Below the pieces are notes generated by a model. That model had not been told where the DNA came from. It made no database searches and saw only the letters and a program-made list of their open reading frames with translations. Shown here piece by piece: positions 1 through 64,000 of a stretch of 64,000 nt of DNA. The stretch spans positions 1 through 64,000 of the forward strand of contig NBMY01000077.1 in NCBI GenBank assembly GCA_002212985.1. The letters are read 5' to 3'. The stretch is from Sphingobacteriales bacterium TSM_CSS (GTDB taxonomy: Bacteria > Bacteroidota > Bacteroidia > Chitinophagales > UBA2359). Each line of letters starts with the position of its first letter. The stretch's first letter is position 1. The position numbers and the translations under genes are program-made.

Positions 1-473
1 TGACCGTTACGGATGCCAACGGCTGTGTGGTCACTACGGGCGGGGTGGTGAATAATATCGGCGGTCCTTTGGCGAGCGCTTTGGGAGCGGATGCCACTTG
101 CGGCAATTCCGATGGTTCGTTGCTTGTTACGGTTAGCGGCGGTACATCGCCTTACACGTACAGTTGGAGCAACGGCGCTGCCACGGAAGACCTTGTTGGC
201 GTTTCGGCAGGCAGTTATGATTTGACCGTTACGGATGCCAACGGCTGTGTGGTCACTACGGGCGGGGTGGTAAACAACATTGGCGGTCCTTCGGCGAGCG
301 CTTTGGGAGCGGATGCCACCTGTGGCAATTCCGATGGTTCGGTAAATGTTACGGTCAGCGGCGGTACATCGCCTTACACGTACAGTTGGAGCAACGGCGC
401 TGCCACGGAAGACCTTGTTGGCGTTTCGGCAGGCAGTTATGATTTGACCGTTACGGATGCCAACGGCTGTGTG
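1..473 (+). repeat. 222-bp near-identical tandem repeat inside the SprB-type gene
   Basis: The sequence starting tgaccgttacggatgcc occurs at 1, 223 and 445, an exact 222-bp period (74 codons). The first two units are almost identical, differing mainly near 110-130 and 340-350. Identity stops at about 473, after which the repeats are related only at protein level. The array continues beyond the left window edge. Confidence 0.92.
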
Positions 474-1955
474 TCAGTAATATCGGCAGTGGTGGATAAT
501 GTTGCCGGACCAGATGCTACTTTATTGCTGTTGAATGCCTCTTGCGGCAATGCCAATGGCTCAATAAATTTAACCGTAACCGGCGGAACGCCCCCCTATT
601 CTTATACATGGAGCAATGGTGCTGTTGCCGAAGACCTTTCGGGGCTTGCAGCAGGCGATTATATGGTTACTGTAGCCGATGCCAACGGCTGTACCGTAAT
701 GTTGAGCGCCAACATCAGCAACACACCTGTGCCTGCACTTACGGCAACTAGTGTAGATGCCATAGGAGGTAATGCAAATGGCAGTATAAATATCACTGTT
801 TCGGGTGGTACTCCCGACTATGATTACAACTGGAGCAACGGCGCAACCACAGAAGATTTGAGCGGTGTGGCAGCCGGTTCTTATTCCGTAACTGTTAATG
901 ACAGCAACGGTTGTACCGCCACATTAACCATTACAGTTGGCAATATTTCCTGTATTACGGCAACGTTTACTGAAGCCGATGCCACTTGTGGCAATGCGAA
1001 CGGCGAAATAGATGTAACGGTAAGCGGCGGCACATTGCCCTATACCTATAACTGGAGCAATGGCGCAACTACCGAAGATATAACCGGTCTTACTCCGGGT
1101 ATTTATTCTGTAACCATTACCGATGCCAATAACTGTGAAACAGAGTTGACCGCAGCAATAGAGGAAGCAGAAATAGCTGTAGCAGCTTTTACCGGACCCA
1201 CCGGTATTTGCCTCGGCGAAACGGCCACCTTTACCTTTACCGGAACAGCTCCGTCAGGCACTTCATTTAACTGGAATTTTGGTTCGGCAGGTCAATTAAC
1301 GGGGCCGGGGCCGCACACGGTAACCTGGAATGCTGCCGGTATAGAAACAGTTACATTAACCGTAACCGATGCCAACGGTTGTACCGACATATATACCCAA
1401 ACCATTTTAATTTCTACGGTAAATGTAACGGCAACCATAGAACCGGGCGGCATGATTGCTCCGGGCGACACAGTATTGTTGAGCGCTAATGCTATATCTT
1501 TGCCCGTTAGTACGGTAATTTATGAATGGACAGCCAGTAGTGGCACCATTGATTGTCCAAGCTGCCCCGAAACAATAGCCATTCCTTCGGAATACAATAC
1601 TGTTTACACCGTTACGGCAACAGACAGTCTTGGTTGTAATGCCAGCGCCTCTGTATCGGTTACCTGGATGTATGAAAAATATGTTACCATACCCAATGCG
1701 TTTTCTCCCAATGCCGATGGACGAAATGATATTTTCAGATTGGTGGGCATTAATATTGCCAGTTTTGAACTACATATTTACGACCGTTGGGGTGGCAACA
1801 TGTTCTCTATTGAAGATACTGATATTGGAAAGGGTTGGGACGGAAAGCACAACGGGATTGATTGCGAGCTTGGAGTTTATGTTTATTATGTTTTAGTTAC
1901 TTTTACCGACGGAACTACACAGAAACTGAAAGGCAATGTTACCCTCATCAGGTAA
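3..1955 (+). CDS. SprB-repeat surface protein, C-terminal part (5' end outside window), T9SS type B C-terminal domain
   Basis: The frame is open from the first bases of the window, so this is the last 650 residues of a larger protein; the GTG at 27 lies inside a repeat and is not a start. It shows five full SprB-type repeats plus the tail of another, each with the pattern CGN.(N/D)G, GGT.PY.Y.WSNGA and V.DANGC. A PKD-like domain follows (about residues 395-480). The last 90 residues form a gliding-motility-associated C-terminal domain (CHU_C type) with NAFSPNADGRND and YDRWG. In this family the C-terminal domain directs export by the type IX system and attachment at the cell surface, as in SprB-like adhesins. 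A strong terminator follows at 1999. Family call is secure; ligand and role in gliding are unknown. Confidence 0.93.
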   Translation, partial: TVTDANGCVVTTGGVVNNIGGPLASALGADATCGNSDGSLLVTVSGGTSPYTYSWSNGAATEDLVGVSAGSYDLTVTDANGCVVTTGGVVNNIGGPSASALGADATCGNSDGSVNVTVSGGTSPYTYSWSNGAATEDLVGVSAGSYDLTVTDANGCVSVISAVVDNVAGPDATLLLLNASCGNANGSINLTVTGGTPPYSYTWSNGAVAEDLSGLAAGDYMVTVADANGCTVMLSANISNTPVPALTATSVDAIGGNANGSINITVSGGTPDYDYNWSNGATTEDLSGVAAGSYSVTVNDSNGCTATLTITVGNISCITATFTEADATCGNANGEIDVTVSGGTLPYTYNWSNGATTEDITGLTPGIYSVTITDANNCETELTAAIEEAEIAVAAFTGPTGICLGETATFTFTGTAPSGTSFNWNFGSAGQLTGPGPHTVTWNAAGIETVTLTVTDANGCTDIYTQTILISTVNVTATIEPGGMIAPGDTVLLSANAISLPVSTVIYEWTASSGTIDCPSCPETIAIPSEYNTVYTVTATDSLGCNASASVSVTWMYEKYVTIPNAFSPNADGRNDIFRLVGINIASFELHIYDRWGGNMFSIEDTDIGKGWDGKHNGIDCELGVYVYYVLVTFTDGTTQKLKGNVTLIR

Positions 1956-44318: not shown

Positions 44319-44611
44319 CCTGTCGAAGGGGCGCCAAATTTTGTCCCCTGCTCCTGTCGAAGGCGTTCCCTGCTCCTGCCGAGTTCGCTCCCTGCTCCTG
44401 TCGAAGGCGCTCCCTGAGCCTGTCGAAGTCGCTCCCTGCTCCTGCCGAGTTCGCTCCCTGCTCCTGTCGAAGGCGCTCCCTGAGCCTGTCGAAGTCGCTC
44501 CCTGCTCCTGTCGAAGTCGCTCCCTGCTCCTGCCGAAGTCGCTCCCTGCTCCTGCCGAAGTCGCTCCCTGCTCCTGTCGAAGTCGCTCCCTGAGCCTGTC
44601 GAAGGGGCGCC
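44319..44611. repeat. 22-bp tandem repeat array (12 copies) with flanking 17-bp direct repeat
   Basis: The pentamer CCCTG recurs at exactly 22-bp steps from 44346 to 44588 (12 copies). The unit is CCCTG, then (CTC/GAG)CCTG, then (T/C)CGAAG or CCGAGT. Copies 2-4 and 5-7 form the same trio of variants, so there is a 66-bp higher-order period. The 17-mer cctgtcgaaggggcgcc occurs at both ends (44319 and 44595). The core gagcctgtcgaag resembles repeats known to be scattered between genes in many Bacteroidota genomes. It is in the spacer after lptD and is not a CRISPR because there are no unique spacers. Confidence 0.9.
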
Positions 44612-44869: not shown

Positions 44870-45003
44870 AGCGATAACACGCAGCTTGAGCGAGGTAAAA
44901 GTTTGCACAAAGCAAAGCAGCGGTAGGCTACAGAAGAACGCCCTGCCCATAAATGAGAGACAAACACATTTCAATAAAAAAACAATCTAAAACCAAAAAA
45001 ATT

Positions 45004-46014
45004 ATGAAGAAGTTAGTCTTACTCCTTTCCCTGGCAGTTTTTGCTGCTACCGGCGCTTTTGCGCAAACTACTCCCGCATCCGACCAATGTAGCCAAGGAG
45101 GCACCGACACTTCTGTCGGTCAAGGTCCTAACAGCACCTTTACAACGCCCAACAGTTTCACCATCTCCATTCCTGCTCCCACCACCTCGTTCACATTTAG
45201 CGCTGTTGCCGGACAAACCGACAACGACCAGGGTGTAACCGGTTTGGTAGTGCGCGAATATTTGGGTGGCGATGAAATAAGCTGCTTTGGCCGTGGCGAC
45301 GGTGTTATTGCCGCATACGTTGTGGGTGGTACCGCTCCTTACACTTTCACACTGTATCGAGAGGCTGGTGCTACTGATGTTTTGGTTGCTACTAGCCCAT
45401 CTGTTCCCGGTTCTTGTACTGGTGGTACCTGTTCTGGTAACTTTGAATTTAACGGCGGCACAGGTGGAAACTTTGCAACGTTGTTAACAACAGGACAATA
45501 TTACGTAAATGTTATCGATGCAAACGGTTGTGCTATCAGCTCGCTCACTGCGCCTACCTTTACCGGCGGTGCTGTAGGCACAGGTTACACCGCAGCTCTC
45601 ATTACACTTGAACAACCAGATGCGCTACAGGTTACCTATTGCCAAACTCCGGACCTCTGTCTGGCAAGTACCGGTCAAATTCAGTTGAGCATTACCGGTG
45701 GTACGCAGCCTTATGCGCTTACTTGGGCTGCCGGCACCTATAACGGCACTACTGCTCCCGGTGGTGTAGCTCCTGCTGCACAAGCCGGCAGCATTACGGC
45801 AGGCACGGTTACCAGCGCTACCTCACCCACATTAGTTGGTACCACACCCGCTACTGCTCAAAACGTAATGGATGCTGCTGCCCCCGGCGATTTAGCAACA
45901 GAAACCGAAAATACGCAAACAGTGCCCCAGCCGGTTACCATTTCCAACTTAACGGGTAGCTACAACTACAACTTTAGCGTTAATGACGCCAACAATTGCC
46001 CAATTGTACAATAA
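45004..46014 (+). CDS. Secreted repeat protein, SprB-like, without sorting domain
   Basis: A 336-residue exported protein from the ATG at 45004 (signal peptide 1-20, ending GAFAQ). It carries two or three degenerate SprB-like modules: GGTAPYTFTLYREAG then TTGQYYVNVIDANGC, and LSITGGTQPYALTWAAG then YNYNFSVNDANNC. It stops soon after the last DANNC, and neither a type A nor type B T9SS sorting domain is present. Either it is a genuine short secreted protein or the 3' part of a larger adhesin has been lost. Codon use is like its neighbours. A promoter lies upstream and two hairpins lie downstream. Confidence 0.78.
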   Translation: MKKLVLLLSLAVFAATGAFAQTTPASDQCSQGGTDTSVGQGPNSTFTTPNSFTISIPAPTTSFTFSAVAGQTDNDQGVTGLVVREYLGGDEISCFGRGDGVIAAYVVGGTAPYTFTLYREAGATDVLVATSPSVPGSCTGGTCSGNFEFNGGTGGNFATLLTTGQYYVNVIDANGCAISSLTAPTFTGGAVGTGYTAALITLEQPDALQVTYCQTPDLCLASTGQIQLSITGGTQPYALTWAAGTYNGTTAPGGVAPAAQAGSITAGTVTSATSPTLVGTTPATAQNVMDAAAPGDLATETENTQTVPQPVTISNLTGSYNYNFSVNDANNCPIVQ

Positions 46015-48540: not shown

Positions 48541-48658
48541 CTTTAAAAAAATGCTCTTTACGGTTGTAAAGGTTGGCAATCGACTTGAAAACAATCAACC
48601 TGTTTGTTATCAAAACCCGAAACAACAAGTAAAGAGCGTAAATTATAGCAATTCAATT

Positions 48659-51600
48659 ATGTGCAATAGTAAAAAAATGATTGAGTTTATAATGCACTCA
48701 TCTATACATAAAATACCCATCGGCCTTGCAATTGTATTGCTTGGATTTGCCTTGCTGCTTCCTGCACAAAAGTTAAATGCACAGTGTGCAAACGATAACG
48801 CATTTCAGGGAACGGCGGGCGATTTTTGTGCTTTAAACATCACCTCTTCAACGGCTGCTTCTGCAAGGGCAGGTTGGTATATTGACTGGCCGGTTTCTAC
48901 AGGGCATACTTACCGGTTTTCTCATTGTGGCGGCAGTTTTGATTCAAGAATTACGCTCTATAATGGCACCAGTACAACTTCTTTAGCATTTAACGATGAT
49001 AACGGCGTTGCTTGTACTGGAGTAGCCGCATCATTACAATGGACAGCAACATATACAGGTAATGTTCGTGTATTGACTGATCAATGGACAAGCGGTGATG
49101 CTTGTTCGCCTTCAGGTGCATTTATTGCTCTAGCTGGTTCAATTGTTAGTTTCAAAGCCGGTACCAACTTCTCTACCCCAATTGCGGTTGGTACTTTATC
49201 GGGCTGTGCTTCATACAGCAATACACAAGATAATGGCACCTGCTTTTTCAATGATTTCGGTCAAGCCAGCGGCGATATTTATTACCAGTTTGTATTAAAT
49301 AATACCGCTACGGTAAATCTTTCACACTGCGGCTCTGGTTTCGATACTTATATGTATCTGCTCAACAGCGGCGGTGGTACAATTACCTCAAACGATGATA
49401 GCGGACCCTTGTGTGCTTCAACAACTTCCTCTATTCAAATTTCACTCGGTGCCGGCACTTACTATCTGGTCTCAGAAGGATTTAGCTCCAATACCGGCAA
49501 CATCAATACTCAAATTTCCATTCAGCCTCCAACCGGCGGCAGTATTTCAGGCAGCGCTTCTGCGGTTTGCCCCGGCCAAACCGGCACTACCTATACCATT
49601 AGCGGGGTAAGTAATGCAACAGACTACTTATGGTCTGTTCCCGCCGGCGCAACCATTACTGCAGGGCAGGGTACTACCTCTATTACCGTTACATGGGGCA
49701 CTACGGGTGGCAACGTAACCTGCACACCCCGCACCTATGGCGGAACCTGTAACGGAACCGCAGTAAGTTTTGCCGTTACCATGCAAACCAACTCCACCGC
49801 TCCATCGGGCATTACCGGCAACACTACCATTTGTGCAGGTGGCAGCACCACACTCACCGTTTCGGGCGGCAGTTTGGGTACCGGTGCAGGCTGGTTTTGG
49901 TACAGCGGCAGTTGCGGCGGCACGTTGGTTGCTTCCAATACATCAAGTGTATCGGTAGCTCCAGGCTCTACTACTACCTACTTTGTACGGGCACAGGGCA
50001 CTTGTAATACTACCACTTGCGCCAGTGTAACGGTTTCGGTTGTAGCAGACCCATCCATTTCCGTATCGGGCGCCACTACTGTTTGTTATAACGGAACAGC
50101 CACGCTATCCGCTTCGCCAGCCAACGGTACGGGAACCTGCACCATTCAGTGGCAAAGCAGCCCCAATAACAGCACCTGGACAAATATCAGCGGTGCAAAC
50201 AGCAGTACCTATACTACGCCGGCGCTAACTTCCTCTACCTGGTATAGGGCTACCTACAGTTGTACAGGAAGCGGTTGCGATGCAGCAACATCGGGTAGCA
50301 TACTGGTAACGGTAAATTATCCTACTGGTGCTCAGTTTGGTAATCCTATTGTGGTTGGTACGCTATCGGGTTGTGCTTCTTATAGCAACACACAAAATAA
50401 TAGTACCACAAACTGTTTCCTCAATGACTTTGGCCAAGCCAGTGATGATATTTACTACCAGTTTACGTTAAACAATACGGCAACTGTAAATATTTCGCAT
50501 TGTGGTTCTGCCGTAGGTGATACTTATATAAGCCTGTTGAACAGCGGTGGCGGAATTATCCAACAGGTTGATGACAACGGACCCATATGTTCGGGTTTAC
50601 AGGCTTCTATACAAGCTACTCTTGGTGCAGGCACTTACTATGTAGTATCCGAAGGTTATAGCACAAATGCCGGTGATATTACCACCCAAATTTCCATACA
50701 GGCTCCTACGGGCGGCAGTATAACGGGCAACTCGGCAGTTTGCCCCAGCCAGGCGGGTACTACTTATACCATTAGCGGCGTTAATTTTGCAACAGATTAC
50801 CAGTGGTCTGTTCCAGCGGGCGCAACCATTACTGCAGGTCAGGGTACTACCTCTATTACCGTTACATGGGGCAGCACAGGCGGCAACGTAACCTGTACGC
50901 CACGCACTTATGGCGGAGCATGCAGCGGAACGGCGGTGAATTTTGCCGTTACCATGCAAACCACCTCAAGTGCACCAACAGGAGTAAGCGGTGCAGCTAC
51001 TATTTGTACCGGTGGCAGTGCTACGCTCACCGTATCGGGCGGCAGTTTAGGTACCGGCGCAGGCTGGTTTTGGTACAGCGGCAGTTGCGGCGGCACGTTG
51101 GTGGCTTCCAATACGTCCAGTATAACAGTTTCACCGGGTTCAACCACTACCTATTTTGTAAGGGCCGAAGGTACTTGTAATACCACCACTTGCGCCAGTG
51201 CAACGGTTACCGTTGTAGCCGATCCTGTTGCTCCAACAGCCACCAAATCGCCTAATGTGACAACTGTTTGCGCTGGCGCAACCTTAACCTTAACCGGCGT
51301 AACCGATAACGGGGGCGGCACCGGCACCTGCAACATAGAGTACAGCGCCAACGGCGGCGCATGGACTACCACATTGCCCAGTCTTACCGCAACCGTAGGA
51401 ACCAACAGCATTGCAGTGCGCAAAAACTGCAACGGTTCAGGTTGTGATATTTCACCTGTTAATACCTACTCATGGACGGTTGTAGCCGATCCGAGCGCTT
51501 CAACACCATCATTCACCAACAGCAGCATTTGCGTTGGCGGCAGCACGGTAGTAAGCACTACTGCTTCAGGTGGTACGGGCAGCTATACCTACCAATGGCA

Positions 51601-54600
51601 ATATTTCAATGGCAGCACTTGGGGAAGCGTGGTAAACGGTACACCTGCGGGATCTGCCTATACCAATGCCACTACAGCAAACTTGACCATTGCAGGTATC
51701 AGCGCTGCGGGCAGCTACCAATACCGTTGTGTTGTAGGCGATACCGGTTCGGGTTGCGATGCTGTTAACAGTGCGGCTTCCACGTTAACCGTTGTAGCCG
51801 ATCCTATAGCGCAAACCATTTCACCGTCAGTAGCCAATGGCACAACGCTTTGTGTGGGCGGTACGGTATCTGCTACGTTTTCGGGTGGTTCGGGAGGTAC
51901 CGGCACTGTAACCGATACGTATGAATTTAGCACCAACAGCGGCGGCAGTTGGAGTGCCTATACGCCCGGAAGCACCATTACCGCCACAACCGGCATGTTG
52001 GGTACCAATACTATTCAGATTAGAACACGCCGCACCGCTACCGGCAACGGTTGCGATGCCAGTGCATACAATACGGTTTCCTATTCGGTTAACCAGTTAG
52101 ACTATGCTAATCTTCAATTCCCCGCTTCTGCTACAATATGCCAGGGCAATAGTTTTACTGCCTACGGGCAAGTGTACGAACTGGGTGTAACCGAAGCTGC
52201 AGGAGCAGGCGCCGGCATTACTGCCCAAATTGGATATAATACCGCTAATACCGACCCCTCAACCTGGACTAACTGGTCTTCAACTACCTTTAACATACAA
52301 TTGGGTAATAATGATGAATATGCCGGAACACTTTCGGGCTTGGCTGTAGGTACTTATTATTATACGTTCCGTTATTCGCTCAACGGCTGCCCCTACCAGT
52401 ATGGCGGTTTCAGCGGCGGTTTCTGGAACGGCACTACCAATGTAAACGGCGTACTTACGGTAAACCCCAACCATACCATTACGCTCACTTCTGCCGTTGG
52501 TACCAATAACCAAACCGTTTGCCAGAATGTTGCCATTACCAACATTACCTATTCGGTTGGCGGCGGCGCAACCGGAGCATCTGTTTCAGGTTTGCCAAGC
52601 GGCGTAACGGGTTCGTTCAGTGCAGGCGTGTTTACCATCAGCGGCGCCCCAACTGCTGCCGGTGGCACTTACAACTACACTGTAACCACTTCGGGAAATA
52701 GTTGTACCGTTGCAACCGCCACCGGAACCATTATTGTAAAAGAACTGCTCGATTATGCCAACCTACAGTTCCCCGCAACTGCCACAATTTGTCAGGGCGG
52801 TTCCGTAACTGTTTTTGGGCAGGTTTTCGAACCGGGTGTAACGCCCGGTGCAGGCGCACAAGGACCCGGTATTACAGCAGAACTTGGTTACAGTACCTCT
52901 AACTCCAATCCCAACACATGGACAAACTGGCAAACTGCCACTTTTAACTCCGGCGGAGGCGGCGCCAATAATGATGAGTATCAGGCTAACTTAGGCGCTG
53001 CACTTACACCGGGTACCTACTACTATGCCTACCGCTATACTCTTAACGGTTGCCAGTATCAATACGGCGGCTACAGCGGCAGCGGCGGCGGTTTCTGGAA
53101 TGGCAGCACCAATATAAGCGGGGTATTAACCATTGTAGCCGACCCCACCGCCCCCACCAACACGCCTACCCCTGCTGCGGGTGCGGTTTGCGTAGGTGCA
53201 GTTTTAAGCGTTACTGCATCGGGGAGTACCGGTGGCACAGGCAATTGTACATATCAATACGCCATTGACCCCGGTACAGGTACTTTTGGTGCATTTGGGG
53301 CAACAAATTCTGTAACAGCTTCCAGTGTTGGCAACGGCACTTACCGAATTAAATCGAGATACAGTTGCGATGGAACCGGCTGCGATGTTTCAGCCGAAAC
53401 TACTACCACATGGACAGTTGTATCAGACCCGACGGTAACCATAAGCGGCGCTGCCGATGTATGCTTTGGCGGTAGTGTAACGCTTACTGCAAACGTAAGC
53501 GGCGGCTCAGGCACGAGCAGTTACCAATGGCGTCGCAACAGCACCAATATATCGGGGGCTACTTCATCAACCTATACCACCGATAACACGCTTGTAGCAG
53601 GTAGTTACAGTTACGATGTGATTGTTACACAAACTGGCAGCGGTTGTTCAAATACGGCCACTGCGGTATCTGCCAATGTAGTAGCCGACCCCGCCCTGTC
53701 TGCCCCAACCTTAACCAATGCATCGATATGTATTGGAGGTAGTACCGCTATCAGCACAAATGCCACAGGTGGCACGGGAACATTTAATTATCAATGGCAA
53801 TATTCTGCAAATGGCAGTACAGGTTGGGCAAACGTAGCAACAGGTACACCAACTGCATATACCTATACCAATGCCACTACATCAACTTTAAATATAGCCA
53901 CAACCAATAGCGCATCGCCAGCAACGGTTTATTACCGGTGCCTGTTAAGCAGCAATACCCCGGCCGGCGCCGGGTGCGATGCCACATCGGCCAATGCCGT
54001 ACTAACTCTGGTAGCCGACCCTGTATCACCTACTTCATCCACTAAATCACCCAATGCCACGTCAGTCTGTGAAGGCTCAGCCCTTACCATTAGCTCGCCA
54101 ACCGGCGGCAGTGCCGGCGTAGGTTGTGTTTTGGAATACAGGTTTACCCAAGATGGTGGCACAACTTTTTCAACACCTTCAACAAGTATTCCGGTACTAA
54201 CTGCCAATTTGGGCGGTTATGATGCCATACAAGCTCGGTATAACAGTTGTTTAACGGGTTGCGATCAACCATCTGCATGGGTTACAATAGGACAATGGAC
54301 GGTTATAGCCGACCCTGCTATCACTGCAACCACCCAACCTCCCAACCCGATTTGCCCGGGCGGTAGCGGAACCTTTACCGTTTCAGCCACAGGTGGAACC
54401 GATGGAACGGGGGCAACAGCACGAACCCAACAATGGCAATATTCGGCTAATGGTACTACGGGTTGGGCAAATGTAATTGATGGTACTCCTACAGGTGTTA
54501 CTTACGGTGGTACCGGGACAGCTACTTCTTTAGTGGCTAGTACCAATAACAGTACCACACTTCCTGGCACCTATTATTATCAGGTAATTGTGGGTGCTAC

Positions 54601-57600
54601 TGGCGATAACTGTGCATCGGTAACATCCGGCGTATTATCTATGACTGTAGTAGCTGAGGCATCTCCCCCAACTGCCACTCAATCGCCAAGTGCCACTACG
54701 GTTTGTGTTGGAGCCAGCTTAACCCTCATAAATCCGGTATTGGGCAGTGGCGGTGCAGGTACCCAAACATTCGAATACAGTACTACAAGTGCCAGTTCTG
54801 GGTTTAGTACTACCGTCCCAACCCTTACCCCTTCTTCGGCAGGCTCGTATAGTATTTGGATACGCACTAGCCCAACAGGATCGGGTTGCGGAATTTCAAC
54901 AGCCACGCAATACACATGGACCGTAGTTGCCGACCCAACTATATCTACTCAACCAATTACTACCCAAACAGTATGTATTGGCGGCACGCCTGCCAATTTG
55001 ACTGTTGTGGCAACAGGAGGCACGCCGTCTTTAACCTACCAATGGTACAGCAATACTACTAACAGCAACAGCGGCGGTACAAGTTTAGGCAGTACTAACG
55101 GAGCCCAAACGGCAACTTATACGCCCCCAACTGCATCTGCCGGAACGGTTTATTACTATTGTGTAGTCAGCTCATCGGGCGATGGTTGCACATCGGTTTC
55201 GAGTAATACGGCAACCGTTATTGTAGCTGATTATCCTGTAACCACAGGTACTACCATCTGTCAAGGGGGCAGCGGAACTATTGCGGTTACCAGTTCTTGT
55301 TCCGGAGGGGCCGTGACCAGCCTTACAGGTGCATGGAATGCAGCCACCGACCCCACAGCCAACCGACCAATATTAGGTACCAATTCTGGATCTTGTGCTT
55401 TCACTACATCAGGTTCTGTGCGCAATTATGTAGCCACACCTTTTCAAGTATCGGTTACGGGTAATTATATTTTTGAAATGGTAAATAATGCCACTTATGA
55501 TGGTGAAGGCTATATCGTATCAGCAGATTTTACACCCGGATTTTGTCCCGGTTCGGGCGGTACCGGAACTTGGTATAGAAACGACTCCGATAGCAGCCCT
55601 TCGGGTGATGAACCACGGATAGGTAATGCCGCTGATGGCGGAGCAGGGGTTTTGACACTTACTGCCGGTGTAAATTACATGTTAGTTTCTACAACTTATG
55701 GCTCAACAGGTACTGTAACTGCATCATTTACATGGACTATCACGCCGCCGTCGGGTGGGGGTATTCTTACCGATGTTGTTCAATGGTACACTGCCGCATC
55801 TGGTGGTTCACCCATTGGCACAGGTACGCCTTTTAACCCGGTTGGTGTGGCTGGCTCGGGTTTGGCAAATACCAATACACCCGGTACCTATACTTTTTAT
55901 GCTGCCTGTTCGGGCAGCCCTAACTGCCGTACAGCAGCTACTTTTGTGATAAACACCTCTGCCACAGCTAATGCAGGCACTGCCCAAACGATATGTGCTG
56001 GCGGTAGTGTAACTTTAGCAGGCTCGATAGGTGGGAGTGCCACAACAAGTACATGGAGTGCGCCAAGCGGCACTTTTTCCGATGCCACATCTTTAACCTC
56101 AACCTATACGCCAAGCATAACAAGTGGCACTGTAACGCTTACCTTAACCACCAACGACCCCGACGGCGCAGGCCCTTGTACGGCAGCTACCTCAACGGTA
56201 GATATTACGGTTATTGCCCCACCTGTTACCACAGGAGTTACAATTTGCCAAGGGGGTAGTGGAACATTGAGTTCATCTACTACTTGCCCCAATACCTTTG
56301 TTAATTCGGGCACAACCATATCAGGCACATGGACAGCCGGTACAGACCCCGTTGCAAGAAGACCCATATCATCTCCTATGACCAATACTAATACTTGTTC
56401 TTTTGATGCATCTATTACCAGAAATTATGTGGCTACATCTTTTCAGGTAAGTGTAACAGGCAATTATGTGTTTGAAATGAATAATGACTCTAATTTTGAT
56501 GGTATGGGTTACATAGTAACAGGAGCATTTGTTCCCGGAACTTGTCCCGGTGCAGGAACATGGGTTAGGGGTGATCAGGATGACGGTGTAGCCGGCAACG
56601 AACCCCGATTAGGTGCAAGCGGAGTAGGGGCGGGCGTTATGACCTTAACAGTAGGTACAACCTATACGCTTATATCAACTACATGGGGAGCATCAAGTGG
56701 TACTTATAGTGGAACATTTGCATGGACAATTACACCGCCTTCGGGAGGGCAAATTATGTTACAGGGTGCTGGGCAGATAGAATGGTACACGGCTGCATCG
56801 GGAGGCTCGCCCATTGGTACAGGTACGCCTTTTAACCCGGTAGGTGTGGCTGGTTCGGGATTAGCAAATACCAACACACCCGGTACTTATACTTATTATG
56901 CCGCTTGTTCGGCTAATCCCACTTGCCGTACAGCCACGACTTTTGTAATTAATCAGGCCGCAACTGCCAATGCAGGCAGTCCCCAAACGGTATGCGCAGG
57001 TGGTACGGTAACATTGGCGGGCAGCATAGGAGGCAGCGCTACAAGCAGCACATGGAGTGCGCCAAGCGGCACATTTTCCAATGCCAGTTCTTTAACCTCC
57101 ACCTATACGCCAAGCATAACAAGCGGCACAGTTACCCTAACCTTAACCACCAACGACCCCGACGGGGCCGGACCTTGTACAGCAGCTACCTCTGTGGTGG
57201 TAATCACAGTAACGCCCACCAACACGGTGAGCTCAGCATCCAGTACGCCCACTTTGTGCATCAACACCGCCTTAACCCCCATCACGCACACCACCACGGG
57301 CGCTACGGGCATCGGTTCTCCCACAGGTTTGCCCTCGGGTGTTACGGCAAGTTTTGCAAGCAACACTATTACCATCAGCGGCACACCTACGGCATCGGGC
57401 ACTTTCAGCTACAGCATACCCTTAACCGGCGGCTGCGGCAGCGTGAGTGCCACGGGTACCATCACCGTAACGCCGAATAACACGGTGAGTGCGGCATCCA
57501 GTACGCCCACGCTGTGCATCAACACCGCTTTAACTCCCATCACGCATACCACCACGGGCGCTACGGGCATCGGTTCTCCCACAGGATTACCCTCCGGCGT

Positions 57601-60600
57601 TACGGCAAGTTTTGCGAGCAACACCATTACCATCAGCGGTACGCCTACGGCATCGGGCACGTTCAGCTACAGCATACCCTTAACCGGCGGCTGCGGCTCG
57701 GTGAACGCAACGGGCACCATCACCGTAACGCCGAACAACACGGTCAGCGCGGCATCCAGTACGCTCACATTGTGCATCAACAGCGCCTTAACCCCCATCA
57801 CGCACACCACCACGGGCGCTACGGGCATAGGTTCTCCTACGGGCTTACCCTCCGGCGTTACGGCAAGTTTTGCAAGCAACACCATCACCATCAGCGGCAC
57901 ACCAACAGCATCGGGCACGTTTAACTACAGCATCCCCTTAACCGGCGGCTGTGGCAGTGTGAGCGCCACGGGTACCATAACGGTTAATCCCGATAACACG
58001 GTGAGTGCGGCTTCCAGCACCCCCACGCTGTGCATCAACACCGCCTTAACCCCCATCACGCATACCACCACAGGCGCTACGGGCATCGGTTCTCCTACAG
58101 GTTTGCCCTCGGGTGTTACGGCAAGTTTTGCCGGCAACACCATTACCATCAGCGGCACACCTACGGCGTCGGGCACGTTCAGCTACAGCATACCCTTAAC
58201 CGGCGGCTGCGGCTCGGTGAACGCCACGGGTACGATTACGGTGTCTTCTACTCCCACGGGTGCACAAATCTCCAATCCCATAGTTGTTGGTACGCTTAAC
58301 GGTTGCGCCACCTATGCCGACACGCAGGACAACAGTCCTTCAAATTGTTTTCAGAACAACTACGGTCAACCCAGCGATGATATATATTACCAATTTACCC
58401 TTGCCTATCCGGCTACGGTAAATATTTCGCTTTGCGGTTCAACCATTTACGACTCCTTCCTGAGTTTGCTGAACAGCAGTGGCGGCTTTATTCAGTTTAA
58501 TGACGACAATGGGCCCTTATGTACCGGTTCTAATGCTTCTATCAGAATTTCGCTGGCTGCCGGCACCTATTATGTTGTTTCCGAAGGTTATGACAATAAC
58601 GCAGGCAGTATCAATACCCAGATTTCCATTCAGGTTCCCACGGGCGGAACCATATCGGGGCCCACTGCGGTTTGTCCCAATTCTTCGGGCATAACCTATT
58701 CCATTGCCGGCGTTAGTTATGCCACCGATTATTTGTGGACAGTTCCGGCAGGCGCTACTATTACTGCCGGTCAGGGCACTGCAACTGTTACGGTAAACTG
58801 GGGAAGTTCAGGTGGCAACATCACCTGCACACCGCGCACAAACGGGGGCACCTGTAGCGGAACTGCGGTTAGTTATGCCGTAACCATGCAAACCAATTCA
58901 ACAGATCCGACAGGTATAACCGGCTCAACCATTATTTGCAACGGTTCGGGTACTACCCTTACGGTTGCCGGCGGCAGTTTGGGAACCGGCGCCAGTTGGT
59001 ATTGGTACAGCGGCAGTTGCGGGGGCACTCCTGTTGGAACAGGAAACTCGGTAAGTGTATCGCCTGCAACAACTACTACTTATTATGTTCGGGCAGAAGG
59101 CACCTGCAATACAACCGGCTGTGCCTTTGTAACCGTTACGGTAGATGAGGTAAACACTATAACTCTTTCATCGGGTAGCAACACCCAAACCGTTTGTGAG
59201 TATTCGCCTATTACCGACGTTGTATATACCATAACCGGCGCAACCGGTGCATCGGTAAGCGGGCTGCCTTCGGGAGTAACCGGCACGTATAGTGCTGGCA
59301 CCTTTACCATTAGCGGCACACCCACAGCATCTGGCGTTTACAATTACACGGTTACTACAAGCGGCAATAGTTGTCCGCCTGCAACAGCAACCGGAACCAT
59401 TACTGTAAACAGCCTTATTGATTGGGCTAATTTGCAGCATCCGCCATCGGGTACTGTATGTTATGGCGCTAATTTTACGGTATATGGGCAGGTATATGAA
59501 CCTGGTGTAACGCCCGGAACCGGTATTCAGGGAGCCGGTATAGATGCCGAGTTTGGTTACAGCACATCCAACACCAACCCGTCGGGATGGACCAACTGGG
59601 CTGCTGCTACTTTTAATGCTGCCGGCGGCGGAACCAATAATGATGAGTATATGTACAACTTTATTGCACCGACATCGGGTACATATTACTATGCTTTCCG
59701 CTATCGTTTAAACGGATGTGAATGGCAATACGGCGGCTACAGCGGCAGCGGTGGCGGATTTTGGAATGGCAGCACCTATGTTAGCGGGGTATTAACTGTG
59801 TTGGAACCAGTAAACTATGGAACAGTTGCCAACGGCGATGAGGCATTGTGCAGTGGCGACGACCCGTCAAACATTACCTTATCTGCTGCGCCATCGGGCG
59901 GTGCGGGCACATTTACCTATCAATGGTATTATCAGGACGGAATCGTAACTTGCCCTACCGGAACCAATACCACAGGCTGGACACTTATAAGCGGAGCCAC
60001 CGGCAGCAGTTACGACCCGCCCGCTGGGTTAACCGTATCCAGAACTTATGCTTTATTAGTAGATGCAACCGGCACACCCGATTGCGGCCCGGCAACATGG
60101 GCTAGCGGTTGCCGCAAAGTAACGGTAAATGTATGTTGTGTAGCTCCCGATTTGCTGAGCTATGCCGTGAACCCCGCAAGTTATTGCGAAAATGCACCTA
60201 TTACGCCGAATCTGGCTACTGTGAGTGGTTCCACCCCGATGACGTTCTCTGTCAGCCCGTCCCTACCTGCAGGATTAAGTTTAAATACCACTACCGGCGA
60301 AATTACGGGAACACCAACCGTTCCGACAACTGCCGCAGATTATACCATTACCGCTACCAATGCTTGTGGTTTTACCACAGTTGCCTTAAATATTGCCATC
60401 AATTCATTATCGGTTCCGCCAACCGGAGCAACCGGTACAACCACCATTTGCGAGGGCAACAGCACTACGCTAACCGTTAGCGGCGGTTTTGCCGGTACCG
60501 GTGCTGTAGCACAATGGTTTACCGGATCCTGTGGCGGCACTTCCGTTGGCACGGGCAATTCCATAACTGTTTCGCCCACCGTAACCACCACCTATTATGT

Positions 60601-62317
60601 AAGATACAGCGGTATTTGCAATACCACTTCCTGCGGAAGTGTAACGGTAACGGTAAATACACTTTCTATTGCACCTACTAACATAGATGGTACTACTACA
60701 ATTTGTGCCGGCAATAATACGACATTAACGGTTAGCGGAGGATACTTAGGTACCGATGCAATAATTGAATGGTTCACAGGTTCATGCGGCGGTACTGCCG
60801 CCGGTACGGGTAGTTCCATTAACGTTTCTCCTTCGGTTACTACTACTTATTATGTTCGCTACAATGGAGTGTGCAACACCACTTCCTGCATTTCGCAAGA
60901 AGTTACAGTCAATCCGTTGCCGCAAGGAAGTCTTACTGCTAACGGGCCTTTCTGCGGAACAGACGGCGGAGCCGGAATGCTGACCTTTACCGCTACTGCC
61001 GGGGCAGATTCCTTGTCTCTTTTATTGCAAGACCAAGATGGTGTGATTTATAATTTTGATGGCAACTCTTATCCAAAAGTAGCTAGCGGAGTTCCATTTA
61101 ATGCACCCGTTACACCTATTACCACTACAACTACCTTTACCATCAATGCCATATTAGATGCCAACGGTTGCTTCCGAAATAGTGGAATAACCGGGCCAAC
61201 GGCATCTATTGTTATCAATGATCCTGCAACCGTAGAAGCCGGCGGGCCCGATTCTGCTTGTCAATCGGCAACGCCAGCCCCCATTACTCTTAGTGGAGCA
61301 AGTGTGGGTGGTGGTGCAACCACCGGAGCATGGAGTATTACTTTCGGAACCGGTACCTTAAGCAGTACCGCTCAAACCGCAAATCCAGAAACTGTTACCT
61401 TTACTCCCGATGCTAACTTTAGTGGTACCGTAACTCTTACCTTAACCACCAATGACCCCGACGGCGCCGGTCCCTGCTTAGCTGCTACCGATACCAGAGT
61501 CATAACCGTTCATCGTTCTCCCACTGTTTCGGCAAGTAATACTAGTCCTGTTTGTGTTGGTGAAAGTATCAACCTTTCAGCCAACTTTACTCCAAACGGT
61601 ACAAGTACCACTGCAACTGCATGGAGTTGGAGCGGACCCAACAGTTTCAGTTCAACTGCACAAAATCCGCCTGCGTTTACAGCTTCTCTGGCTTCGGCAG
61701 GTACTTATACGGTAACCGTTACTGACAATAACGGTTGTACCAATTCAGCACAAACTACGGTTGTGGTAAACGCATTGCCGGTATGCTCGGTATCTGGTGC
61801 AACAACTGTATGTCCTTCATCAACCGGAAACGTATATACAGCTACCGCAGGTATGAGTACTTATGCATGGAGTATAAGCGGCAGTGGCTCAATTTTTGGA
61901 GCCAATAATGGTCCATCCGTGTCAATTGATGCAGGTTCGGCTTGTAACAGCTCCTTTACCTTATCTGTTACTATTACCGATGGTAATGGTTGTACCGCTT
62001 CTTGTAATTATATAGTGAATGTAAATGACACAACCGCTCCGGCAATCAGCGGCACCTTAACCGCCATCAATCAGGAAGGCTGTTCAGCATCGGATGCCCC
62101 AGCCGCGACCAATACTTTGGCATATTTAACGGGCAATGGGTTAACGATAACGGATGCCTGCGGCACCGGCAACCTGACGGTGACGAGCAGCGATGGAACG
62201 CCAACTGGCAGCTGTCCATGGTCGATTATTCGCACCTACACGGTAACGGATGCCTGCGGCAACAGCAGCACGGCACAACAGACCATTACGGTAGATGATA
62301 CTCGCTCCGACGATTAG
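48659..62317 (+). CDS. Giant modular secreted surface protein (frame ends at a probable frameshift)
   Basis: A 4552-residue reading frame. The signal peptide is within the first 45 residues (IPIGLAIVLLGFALLLPAQ). I chose the ATG at 48659; 48677 and 48692 are also possible, and an upstream frame from 48551 is unlikely. Modules in order: N-terminal PPC-like domain; [PPC-PKD-like-Ig-like] at about 49155-50050 and 50320-51220; Ig-like and 'GQVYEPGVT' domains at 52096-53140; more Ig-like units; a 329-residue module twice (55241-57214); four 86-residue putative-Ig repeats (57221-58252); [PPC-PKD-Ig] again (58255-59140); putative-Ig plus 'GQVYEPGVT' (59150-59800); Ig/PKD-like units to the end. No sorting domain is reached because the frame stops at TAG 62315. 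The frame on the other side is described separately. Likely an adhesin exported by T9SS. Confidence 0.9.
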   Translation: MCNSKKMIEFIMHSSIHKIPIGLAIVLLGFALLLPAQKLNAQCANDNAFQGTAGDFCALNITSSTAASARAGWYIDWPVSTGHTYRFSHCGGSFDSRITLYNGTSTTSLAFNDDNGVACTGVAASLQWTATYTGNVRVLTDQWTSGDACSPSGAFIALAGSIVSFKAGTNFSTPIAVGTLSGCASYSNTQDNGTCFFNDFGQASGDIYYQFVLNNTATVNLSHCGSGFDTYMYLLNSGGGTITSNDDSGPLCASTTSSIQISLGAGTYYLVSEGFSSNTGNINTQISIQPPTGGSISGSASAVCPGQTGTTYTISGVSNATDYLWSVPAGATITAGQGTTSITVTWGTTGGNVTCTPRTYGGTCNGTAVSFAVTMQTNSTAPSGITGNTTICAGGSTTLTVSGGSLGTGAGWFWYSGSCGGTLVASNTSSVSVAPGSTTTYFVRAQGTCNTTTCASVTVSVVADPSISVSGATTVCYNGTATLSASPANGTGTCTIQWQSSPNNSTWTNISGANSSTYTTPALTSSTWYRATYSCTGSGCDAATSGSILVTVNYPTGAQFGNPIVVGTLSGCASYSNTQNNSTTNCFLNDFGQASDDIYYQFTLNNTATVNISHCGSAVGDTYISLLNSGGGIIQQVDDNGPICSGLQASIQATLGAGTYYVVSEGYSTNAGDITTQISIQAPTGGSITGNSAVCPSQAGTTYTISGVNFATDYQWSVPAGATITAGQGTTSITVTWGSTGGNVTCTPRTYGGACSGTAVNFAVTMQTTSSAPTGVSGAATICTGGSATLTVSGGSLGTGAGWFWYSGSCGGTLVASNTSSITVSPGSTTTYFVRAEGTCNTTTCASATVTVVADPVAPTATKSPNVTTVCAGATLTLTGVTDNGGGTGTCNIEYSANGGAWTTTLPSLTATVGTNSIAVRKNCNGSGCDISPVNTYSWTVVADPSASTPSFTNSSICVGGSTVVSTTASGGTGSYTYQWQYFNGSTWGSVVNGTPAGSAYTNATTANLTIAGISAAGSYQYRCVVGDTGSGCDAVNSAASTLTVVADPIAQTISPSVANGTTLCVGGTVSATFSGGSGGTGTVTDTYEFSTNSGGSWSAYTPGSTITATTGMLGTNTIQIRTRRTATGNGCDASAYNTVSYSVNQLDYANLQFPASATICQGNSFTAYGQVYELGVTEAAGAGAGITAQIGYNTANTDPSTWTNWSSTTFNIQLGNNDEYAGTLSGLAVGTYYYTFRYSLNGCPYQYGGFSGGFWNGTTNVNGVLTVNPNHTITLTSAVGTNNQTVCQNVAITNITYSVGGGATGASVSGLPSGVTGSFSAGVFTISGAPTAAGGTYNYTVTTSGNSCTVATATGTIIVKELLDYANLQFPATATICQGGSVTVFGQVFEPGVTPGAGAQGPGITAELGYSTSNSNPNTWTNWQTATFNSGGGGANNDEYQANLGAALTPGTYYYAYRYTLNGCQYQYGGYSGSGGGFWNGSTNISGVLTIVADPTAPTNTPTPAAGAVCVGAVLSVTASGSTGGTGNCTYQYAIDPGTGTFGAFGATNSVTASSVGNGTYRIKSRYSCDGTGCDVSAETTTTWTVVSDPTVTISGAADVCFGGSVTLTANVSGGSGTSSYQWRRNSTNISGATSSTYTTDNTLVAGSYSYDVIVTQTGSGCSNTATAVSANVVADPALSAPTLTNASICIGGSTAISTNATGGTGTFNYQWQYSANGSTGWANVATGTPTAYTYTNATTSTLNIATTNSASPATVYYRCLLSSNTPAGAGCDATSANAVLTLVADPVSPTSSTKSPNATSVCEGSALTISSPTGGSAGVGCVLEYRFTQDGGTTFSTPSTSIPVLTANLGGYDAIQARYNSCLTGCDQPSAWVTIGQWTVIADPAITATTQPPNPICPGGSGTFTVSATGGTDGTGATARTQQWQYSANGTTGWANVIDGTPTGVTYGGTGTATSLVASTNNSTTLPGTYYYQVIVGATGDNCASVTSGVLSMTVVAEASPPTATQSPSATTVCVGASLTLINPVLGSGGAGTQTFEYSTTSASSGFSTTVPTLTPSSAGSYSIWIRTSPTGSGCGISTATQYTWTVVADPTISTQPITTQTVCIGGTPANLTVVATGGTPSLTYQWYSNTTNSNSGGTSLGSTNGAQTATYTPPTASAGTVYYYCVVSSSGDGCTSVSSNTATVIVADYPVTTGTTICQGGSGTIAVTSSCSGGAVTSLTGAWNAATDPTANRPILGTNSGSCAFTTSGSVRNYVATPFQVSVTGNYIFEMVNNATYDGEGYIVSADFTPGFCPGSGGTGTWYRNDSDSSPSGDEPRIGNAADGGAGVLTLTAGVNYMLVSTTYGSTGTVTASFTWTITPPSGGGILTDVVQWYTAASGGSPIGTGTPFNPVGVAGSGLANTNTPGTYTFYAACSGSPNCRTAATFVINTSATANAGTAQTICAGGSVTLAGSIGGSATTSTWSAPSGTFSDATSLTSTYTPSITSGTVTLTLTTNDPDGAGPCTAATSTVDITVIAPPVTTGVTICQGGSGTLSSSTTCPNTFVNSGTTISGTWTAGTDPVARRPISSPMTNTNTCSFDASITRNYVATSFQVSVTGNYVFEMNNDSNFDGMGYIVTGAFVPGTCPGAGTWVRGDQDDGVAGNEPRLGASGVGAGVMTLTVGTTYTLISTTWGASSGTYSGTFAWTITPPSGGQIMLQGAGQIEWYTAASGGSPIGTGTPFNPVGVAGSGLANTNTPGTYTYYAACSANPTCRTATTFVINQAATANAGSPQTVCAGGTVTLAGSIGGSATSSTWSAPSGTFSNASSLTSTYTPSITSGTVTLTLTTNDPDGAGPCTAATSVVVITVTPTNTVSSASSTPTLCINTALTPITHTTTGATGIGSPTGLPSGVTASFASNTITISGTPTASGTFSYSIPLTGGCGSVSATGTITVTPNNTVSAASSTPTLCINTALTPITHTTTGATGIGSPTGLPSGVTASFASNTITISGTPTASGTFSYSIPLTGGCGSVNATGTITVTPNNTVSAASSTLTLCINSALTPITHTTTGATGIGSPTGLPSGVTASFASNTITISGTPTASGTFNYSIPLTGGCGSVSATGTITVNPDNTVSAASSTPTLCINTALTPITHTTTGATGIGSPTGLPSGVTASFAGNTITISGTPTASGTFSYSIPLTGGCGSVNATGTITVSSTPTGAQISNPIVVGTLNGCATYADTQDNSPSNCFQNNYGQPSDDIYYQFTLAYPATVNISLCGSTIYDSFLSLLNSSGGFIQFNDDNGPLCTGSNASIRISLAAGTYYVVSEGYDNNAGSINTQISIQVPTGGTISGPTAVCPNSSGITYSIAGVSYATDYLWTVPAGATITAGQGTATVTVNWGSSGGNITCTPRTNGGTCSGTAVSYAVTMQTNSTDPTGITGSTIICNGSGTTLTVAGGSLGTGASWYWYSGSCGGTPVGTGNSVSVSPATTTTYYVRAEGTCNTTGCAFVTVTVDEVNTITLSSGSNTQTVCEYSPITDVVYTITGATGASVSGLPSGVTGTYSAGTFTISGTPTASGVYNYTVTTSGNSCPPATATGTITVNSLIDWANLQHPPSGTVCYGANFTVYGQVYEPGVTPGTGIQGAGIDAEFGYSTSNTNPSGWTNWAAATFNAAGGGTNNDEYMYNFIAPTSGTYYYAFRYRLNGCEWQYGGYSGSGGGFWNGSTYVSGVLTVLEPVNYGTVANGDEALCSGDDPSNITLSAAPSGGAGTFTYQWYYQDGIVTCPTGTNTTGWTLISGATGSSYDPPAGLTVSRTYALLVDATGTPDCGPATWASGCRKVTVNVCCVAPDLLSYAVNPASYCENAPITPNLATVSGSTPMTFSVSPSLPAGLSLNTTTGEITGTPTVPTTAADYTITATNACGFTTVALNIAINSLSVPPTGATGTTTICEGNSTTLTVSGGFAGTGAVAQWFTGSCGGTSVGTGNSITVSPTVTTTYYVRYSGICNTTSCGSVTVTVNTLSIAPTNIDGTTTICAGNNTTLTVSGGYLGTDAIIEWFTGSCGGTAAGTGSSINVSPSVTTTYYVRYNGVCNTTSCISQEVTVNPLPQGSLTANGPFCGTDGGAGMLTFTATAGADSLSLLLQDQDGVIYNFDGNSYPKVASGVPFNAPVTPITTTTTFTINAILDANGCFRNSGITGPTASIVINDPATVEAGGPDSACQSATPAPITLSGASVGGGATTGAWSITFGTGTLSSTAQTANPETVTFTPDANFSGTVTLTLTTNDPDGAGPCLAATDTRVITVHRSPTVSASNTSPVCVGESINLSANFTPNGTSTTATAWSWSGPNSFSSTAQNPPAFTASLASAGTYTVTVTDNNGCTNSAQTTVVVNALPVCSVSGATTVCPSSTGNVYTATAGMSTYAWSISGSGSIFGANNGPSVSIDAGSACNSSFTLSVTITDGNGCTASCNYIVNVNDTTAPAISGTLTAINQEGCSASDAPAATNTLAYLTGNGLTITDACGTGNLTVTSSDGTPTGSCPWSIIRTYTVTDACGNSSTAQQTITVDDTRSDD
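55241..57214 (+). repeat. Tandem 987-bp (329-residue) module, two copies
   Basis: The marker accacagg...ATTTGCCAAGGGGG (or close variant) starts at 55241 and 56228, 987 bp apart. Each copy has the order TICQGGSGT; NYVAT.FQVSVTGNY; EPR.G; TITPPSGG; WYTAASGGSPIGTGTPFNPVG; AGTAQT or AGSPQT; TTNDPDGAGPCTAATS. The second half of each copy is more conserved than the first. Confidence 0.86.
57221..58252 (+). repeat. Four tandem 258-bp repeats (86 residues, putative-Ig domains)
   Basis: aacacggt(g/c)ag recurs at 57221, 57479, 57737 and 57995, exactly 258 bp apart. Units are nearly identical at DNA level and encode TLCIN(T/S)ALTPITHTTTGATG then GSPTGLPSGVTASFA.N, TISGTPTASGTF and GGCGSV(S/N)ATGTITV. 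Recent tandem duplication is the simplest reading. Long antisense open frames here are by-products of the repeats. Confidence 0.94.
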
Positions 62318-62573
62318 CGGCATCTTAACCGCCATCAATCAGGAAGGCTGTTCAGCATCGGATGCACCTACAGCGACCAATACTTTGGCATATTTGACGG
62401 GCAATGGGTTAACGATAACGGATGCCTGCGGCACCGGCAACCTGACGGTGACTAGCAGCGATGGAACGCCATCGGGCAGCTGTCCATGGTCGATTATTCG
62501 CACCTACACGGTAACGGATGCCTGCGGCAATAGCAGCACGGCACAACAGACCATTACGGTAGATGATACAGTG
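62036..62573 (+). repeat. Two adjacent 270-bp-class repeats, the first 2 bp short
   Basis: gctcc-aligned unit starts are at 62036, 62304 and 62574. The second unit is exactly 270 bp; the first is 268 bp, because the end of unit 1 reads gata-ctcg-ctccg where unit 2 reads gata-cagtgg-ctccg. This 2-bp shortfall breaks the reading frame of the giant gene. Confidence 0.9.
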
Positions 62574-64000
62574 GCTCCGACGATTACCTGCCCTGCCACT
62601 ATATCACAAACCGCAGATGCAGGTTTATGTACGGCAATTGTTTCCATAACTCCGGCAACAGCCACTGATGTTTGCAGCACGCCCACGGTAGTTGGAGTGC
62701 GAAGTGACGCATTGGCGTTGAACGCGCCTTACCCGGTAGGAAATACAACTATTACATGGACAGCTACAGATGCATGTGGTAATTACTCGAACTGCGTACA
62801 AACTGTTACTGTTACCGATGATGAGTTGCCGGTTTTGGCACCTTGTCCTGCAAATATAACAGTGTGTGTGGGTGCCACGGTGAACTTTACCGCACCTACT
62901 GCTACTGATAATTGCCCCGGCGTTACAGTGACACAAACCGGCGGTCAACCCAGCGGTATCACCTTTAACAGTACAGGTATAACAACAAATACTTTTGTGG
63001 CTACCGATGCAGCATCCAATCAAAGTGCGCCTTGCAGCTTTACCGTAACGGTTGTTGAAGACCCCACCCTGAGTGCAACGGGCGATGCTACTATTTGCAT
63101 TGGAGGCAGTACCCTGTTAACAGCTACGCCGGCCGGCGGCTTTACCTGCAGCCCTGTAAACTGGGAGGAAAGTGTCAATGGCGTATCGGGTTGGGCGCCC
63201 ATAAGCGGTGGAACGGGTAATACGCTTACCGTAAGTCCCTCTGTCACTACTTATTATCGGGCTGTTTATACCTGTACCGGTAATGGTTGCGACCCCAGTC
63301 CTTTGTATTCGGGTAATGTGTTGGTAGCAGTGGTTAATCCGCCATCTATAAGCGTTTCGGGTGGTGGTTCAATTTGTGCAGGTTCTTCCGCCATTATAAC
63401 CGCATCAACTTCGGGCGGAACCGGCACGTGTGGCATTACCTGGGAAAGCAGCACTAATGGCATTGACTGGGTGGTTATTGCCGGAGAAACCGGTGCCATA
63501 TACACTACGCCTGCATTAAGCACCGGCACTTACTATTACAGGGCAACTTACGGTTGCAGCGGCAGCGGATGTGCGCCAGCCACTGCCGGGGTAACGGTTT
63601 TGGTAAATGCTAATCCGTCACCCGATTTTGGTATGGCCGACTTATCGGTATGTGCCAATGAACAGGGTGTAACCTACACGTTGAGCAGTACATACAACAA
63701 CTATACATGGGCCGTAACAGGCGGCACCATAGCAAGCGGCGGCGGAAGCGTTGATGCCAGCGTAACCGTGAACTGGGGTGCGGCAGGAAATGGCACGGTA
63801 AGTGTTACAGTTTCTGATGGCAATACCTGCAACGGTACAACAACAGCCAATGTTACCATAAACAGCCGCCCTACGGTTACTTACTGCCAAAGCCCCGATT
63901 ATTGCTTAACAAGCGAAGGAGGTGTATCCTTTAACATACAAGGAGGTTTACCGCCCTACACAGTTTCGTGGACACCGGCAGGAGGTACGCCTTCTTCTCC
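62310..64000 (+). CDS. Continuation of the giant surface protein after the frameshift (runs off window)
   Basis: In the frame beginning at 62310 I translated every codon to the window edge and found no stop (563 codons). It begins inside the repeat that was just interrupted (TISGILTAINQEGCSASDAP...), so it is the same protein one frame over, not a new gene. A HYR-like domain follows at about 62580-62820 (PTITCPATISQTADAGLC; WTATDACGNYSNCVQTVTVTD), then Ig-like and PKD-like units with GGTPSS at the edge. The C-terminal sorting domain should lie beyond 64000. Whether the break is real decay or an error in the repeat cannot be told here. Confidence 0.85.

Follow-up and report, generated by a model that had tools for sequence, protein, structure and literature searches.

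The window analysed here, a stretch of 64,000 bases, covers bases 1-64000 of the 90,260-base contig NBMY01000077.1 from Sphingobacteriales bacterium TSM_CSS, whose draft assembly comprises 173 contigs and is 86.9% complete. The last part of the window is taken up by a giant gene that extends overall from 48551 to 64106 (about 15.6 kb and about 5,190 codons) and encodes a repeat protein in two frames (Table 1). Pfam matches in the upstream frame include four PKD_6, eleven Ig_7 and three PPC domains, along with an HYR_4C match at residues 4532-4581, corresponding to 62144-62293. Against the HYR_4C (PF23237) cut-off of 27 bits, the downstream frame scores 41.8 and lies above it, while unit A by itself, read in the upstream frame, scores 26.8, just below. 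The downstream frame is a 600-codon remainder that lacks a signal peptide. The original prediction described the locus as a giant adhesin gene; the term adhesin draws only on domain content (PKD, Ig, HYR and PPC modules). Further upstream within the gene, at 57203-58233, lies a tandem array of four 258-bp units, the later ones matching the first at 83-90% identity; all stay in frame, in contrast to the 268-bp spacing at the break.

Table 1. Features at the frame break and around the end of the giant gene. Positions refer to the window unless marked as contig positions.
Feature	Position	Strand	Remarks
Upstream part of giant repeat protein gene	48551..62317	+	4,588 codons, ends at TAG 62315-62317; signal peptide near N-terminus
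Repeat unit A (HYR_4C module)	62036..62303	+	268 bp to next unit start; upstream frame; holds the short linker
Frame-break linker	62297..62309	+	Compared with linker 62565-62579, two bases shorter, with one further base difference
Downstream part of giant gene	62304..64000	+	Shifted frame; runs past the window to the contig stop at 64106
Repeat unit B (HYR_4C module)	62304..62573	+	270 bp; read in the shifted frame
HYR domain after unit B (match coordinates)	62565..62813	+	Pfam PF02494, residues 88-170 of downstream frame
Next gene, HYR/SprB/PKD surface protein	contig 64201-68484 (L004:4202-8485)		Complete; own signal peptide; T9SS type A tail

The two frames meet within a pair of tandem repeat units. 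Unit starts at 62036, 62304 and 62574 give spacings of 268 and 270 bp, and a period of 268 was found independently by Tandem Repeats Finder. Units A and B are 95% identical over 267 nt with no gaps, indicating that the repeat is not due to chance. The frame through 62304 encodes the same module as unit A (APTISGILTAINQEGCSASDAP...) and is open to the window edge. Because the linker after unit A is two bases short, the 4,588-codon frame stops at its TAG codon. The sequence and the frame translations thus bear out what had first been described, namely an upstream frame ending at TAG 62315 beside a neighbouring open frame with the same repeat, and unit spacings that reveal two missing bases; the linker is a net two bases short and carries one base difference in addition. 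The site of the frameshift is likewise as predicted, but the extent given for it, 62036-64000, took the window edge as the end, whereas the downstream frame ends at 64106.

The stop at 64106, just outside the window, is the natural end of the giant gene, because the homologue in G002, a member of the same genus, ends at the same motif (TDANGCSP, on G002:C31) and before the same next gene. The shared end motif and the shared next gene also rule out a second frameshift near the gene end, a candidate raised by the stop at 64106 coming without a sorting domain. The order of the giant gene and the next gene is kept in G002, and in a second relative, G001, the next gene lies at a contig edge; its product is 55% identical to that of G002 and 83% identical to that of G001. 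For annotation, 48551-64106 is best treated as one interrupted gene rather than two, and the window edge should not be taken for a gene end.

Comparison with G002 also shows that the two frames were originally one gene, since a single 901-codon open frame in that genome matches both sides of the break, at 62% identity to residues 3852-3954 of the upstream frame and at 44% identity to residues 245-599 of the downstream frame. The HYR_4C pair itself has no match in this 901-codon frame and would have been either gained in the TSM_CSS lineage or lost in G002. The lesion region is absent from the G001 assembly, where a repeated stretch inside the giant gene marks the end of one contig and the next contig begins in the following gene. 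In G002, the giant gene is split across two contigs, one of which contains 264 consecutive N.

The differences between the two units bear on the age of the break. With each unit translated in its proper frame, A and B differ at 13 bases. Nine of these are third-position differences (binomial test against one third, p = 0.009), and of the ten changed codons six are synonymous and four replaced. This bias indicates that, for the greater part of its divergence, unit B was translated in the frame it now occupies, and that the break is either recent or present in the assembly alone.

The lesion is about evenly balanced between being real in some or all of the sampled population and not, which places this reading slightly ahead of an assembly artefact. 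A real lesion would mean that the gene for a giant, secreted, multi-domain surface protein has recently lost a net two bases from the linker that joins tandem, near-identical HYR_4C modules. Translation would stop a few codons past the lesion, yielding a secreted-type protein without unit B, the HYR domain and the conserved C-terminal end, and the 600-codon remainder would carry no signal peptide. The lesion in the sequence, the common origin of the two frames, the natural gene end and the recency signal are shown, and the presence of the lesion in cells and a loss of surface display are inferred. Exact matches between A and B reach 56 bp at most, less than the length of a usual short read. 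Beyond the loss itself, the linker differs from both of its neighbours, and its own base difference indicates that it was not simply copied from one of them. Counter to a real lesion, the break falls exactly where the tract common with one neighbour ends and that of the next neighbour begins, as would be expected of a false join.

An artefact, although it falls short of an even chance, is a serious rival, since repeat genes break the assemblies of both TSM_CSS and its relatives. Under this explanation, the true locus is intact, perhaps with more than two units, and repeat copies were joined with a two-base linker error. Among roughly 19 long repeat-rich frames sampled in the TSM_CSS genome, about half reach the edge of a contig or fetched stretch, mostly true contig ends. 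The assemblies of G001 and G002 both break inside the giant gene, and the 90-residue unit of Draconibacterium sits at contig ends. Repeat-driven collapse and mis-assembly of surface proteins are also documented (PMC6868369). Several features of the locus speak against such an error: A and B share no exact match above 56 bp, the linker carries its own difference, and comparison with G001 reveals no frame errors elsewhere on the contig. A contig built only from read k-mers should, moreover, hold no unseen linker. De Bruijn contigs contain observed k-mers only, which applies here if the contig was assembled in this way. A search elsewhere in the genome for leftover unit copies, a sign of a collapsed array, returned only 53- and 35-bp matches, on C16 and C6.

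A reversible on/off switch, in which recombination between near-identical units shifts the array by 268 bp and so changes the frame of one gene half relative to the other, is very unlikely. A copy-number change would alter the frame because 268 leaves a remainder of 1 on division by 3, two 95% identical direct tandem repeats flank the lesion, and frameshifts with array reshuffling have been described in the repeat adhesin BadA of Bartonella (PMC8859334). However, the lesion lies outside any simple-sequence tract, loss of a unit is not readily reversible, and the spacing in the other tandem array of the giant gene is a multiple of 3. The more specific proposal of an HYR_4C frame toggle, in which unit recombination would switch the giant surface protein between a full-length and a truncated form, is slightly less probable still. 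Assembly error, true loss and a phase-variation-like event had all been listed in the original prediction; the list is sound, and the comparison narrows it, with the hallmark of slipped-strand variation missing. The simple-sequence tract required for slipped-strand phase variation is absent at the frameshift: homopolymers and short-period tracts are lacking from 62290-62320, where the 268-bp period is the only one reported by Tandem Repeats Finder.

Programmed ribosomal frameshifting joining the two frames is rejected as highly improbable. Both frames are open and overlap around the site, but inspection finds no slippery heptamer or shift-prone codon there, the downstream RNA is no more stable than its shuffles (z = 0.29), and G002 keeps a single frame. 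At 29 other HYR-type junctions, a small sample drawn from the fetched loci with a strict pattern, the frame simply continues, and among the junctions scanned only the linker at the lesion stops it. General sequencing indels are rejected because 20 open frames elsewhere on the contig, together about 9,200 codons, each align to G001 in a single frame with no break, although a few of them are antisense overlaps and the set therefore represents fewer independent genes; this frame-by-frame alignment was used because gap counts from nucleotide alignment are misleading, nearly all gaps being clustered and cancelling.

If the lesion is real, the upstream product retains its signal peptide but ends before unit B and everything that follows it, and loss of the conserved C-terminal end would probably prevent normal surface display. 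The outcome would be comparable to that described for Bartonella BadA, a repeat adhesin that is frameshifted in some strains (PMC8859334). In Bartonella henselae, BadA is encoded by a long repetitive adhesin gene that is frameshift-broken in some strains and needs long reads for correct assembly (PMC8859334). The likeness to the TSM_CSS gene lies in a long repetitive gene with a frameshift break; BadA differs in belonging to an unrelated trimeric autotransporter family in a pathogen, and its variation has been shown across strains, as against one TSM_CSS sequence. The break is of an ordinary kind and not a new mechanism. It offers a worked example of why reads are needed before a frame break within the tandem repeats of a draft assembly is taken as biology.

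The giant protein resembles other giant HYR/PKD/Ig-module surface proteins of Bacteroidota (SprB-like, CHU_C-associated), with which it shares a signal peptide, a length of thousands of residues, tandem Ig-like modules (PKD_6, Ig_7, HYR and HYR_4C) and a neighbouring gene with a T9SS type A sorting domain. Unlike these proteins, it ends without a detected T9SS sorting domain: neither a type A nor a type B C-terminal sorting domain was found in its last 600 residues or at the end of the G002 homologue. Tandem HYR_4C modules in Draconibacterium consist of the same 90-residue unit, with 67-72% identity in the best segment and a similar linker type (DDT-x-AP), and also lie at assembly breaks. Unlike the TSM_CSS pair, the Draconibacterium units remain in frame.

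A 353-residue secreted SprB-repeat protein is encoded upstream of the giant gene (window 44953-46014). It shares with the giant protein (contig 63877-64106; L004:3878-4107) a near-C-terminal domain with the pattern VTYCQ-PD-CL...GG..PY (40% identity over 58 residues, E 4e-11), and no recognised T9SS sorting domain was found in either protein. Similar ends occur in G002 and in the small protein of G001, and the domain may represent an undescribed terminal domain or export signal.

Other repeat-rich loci were noted in the same genome. The contig itself begins inside another repeat protein (window 1-1955), which contains a 222-bp tandem array and a T9SS type B tail. An intergenic tandem repeat of 22 bp, present in about 12 copies, lies at window 44346-44604. 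On the minus strand of L114:2-8839 (G000:C168), a long repeat protein frame of 1,096 residues is a second case of such a frame without an evident sorting tail, and another long secreted repeat protein comes directly after it.
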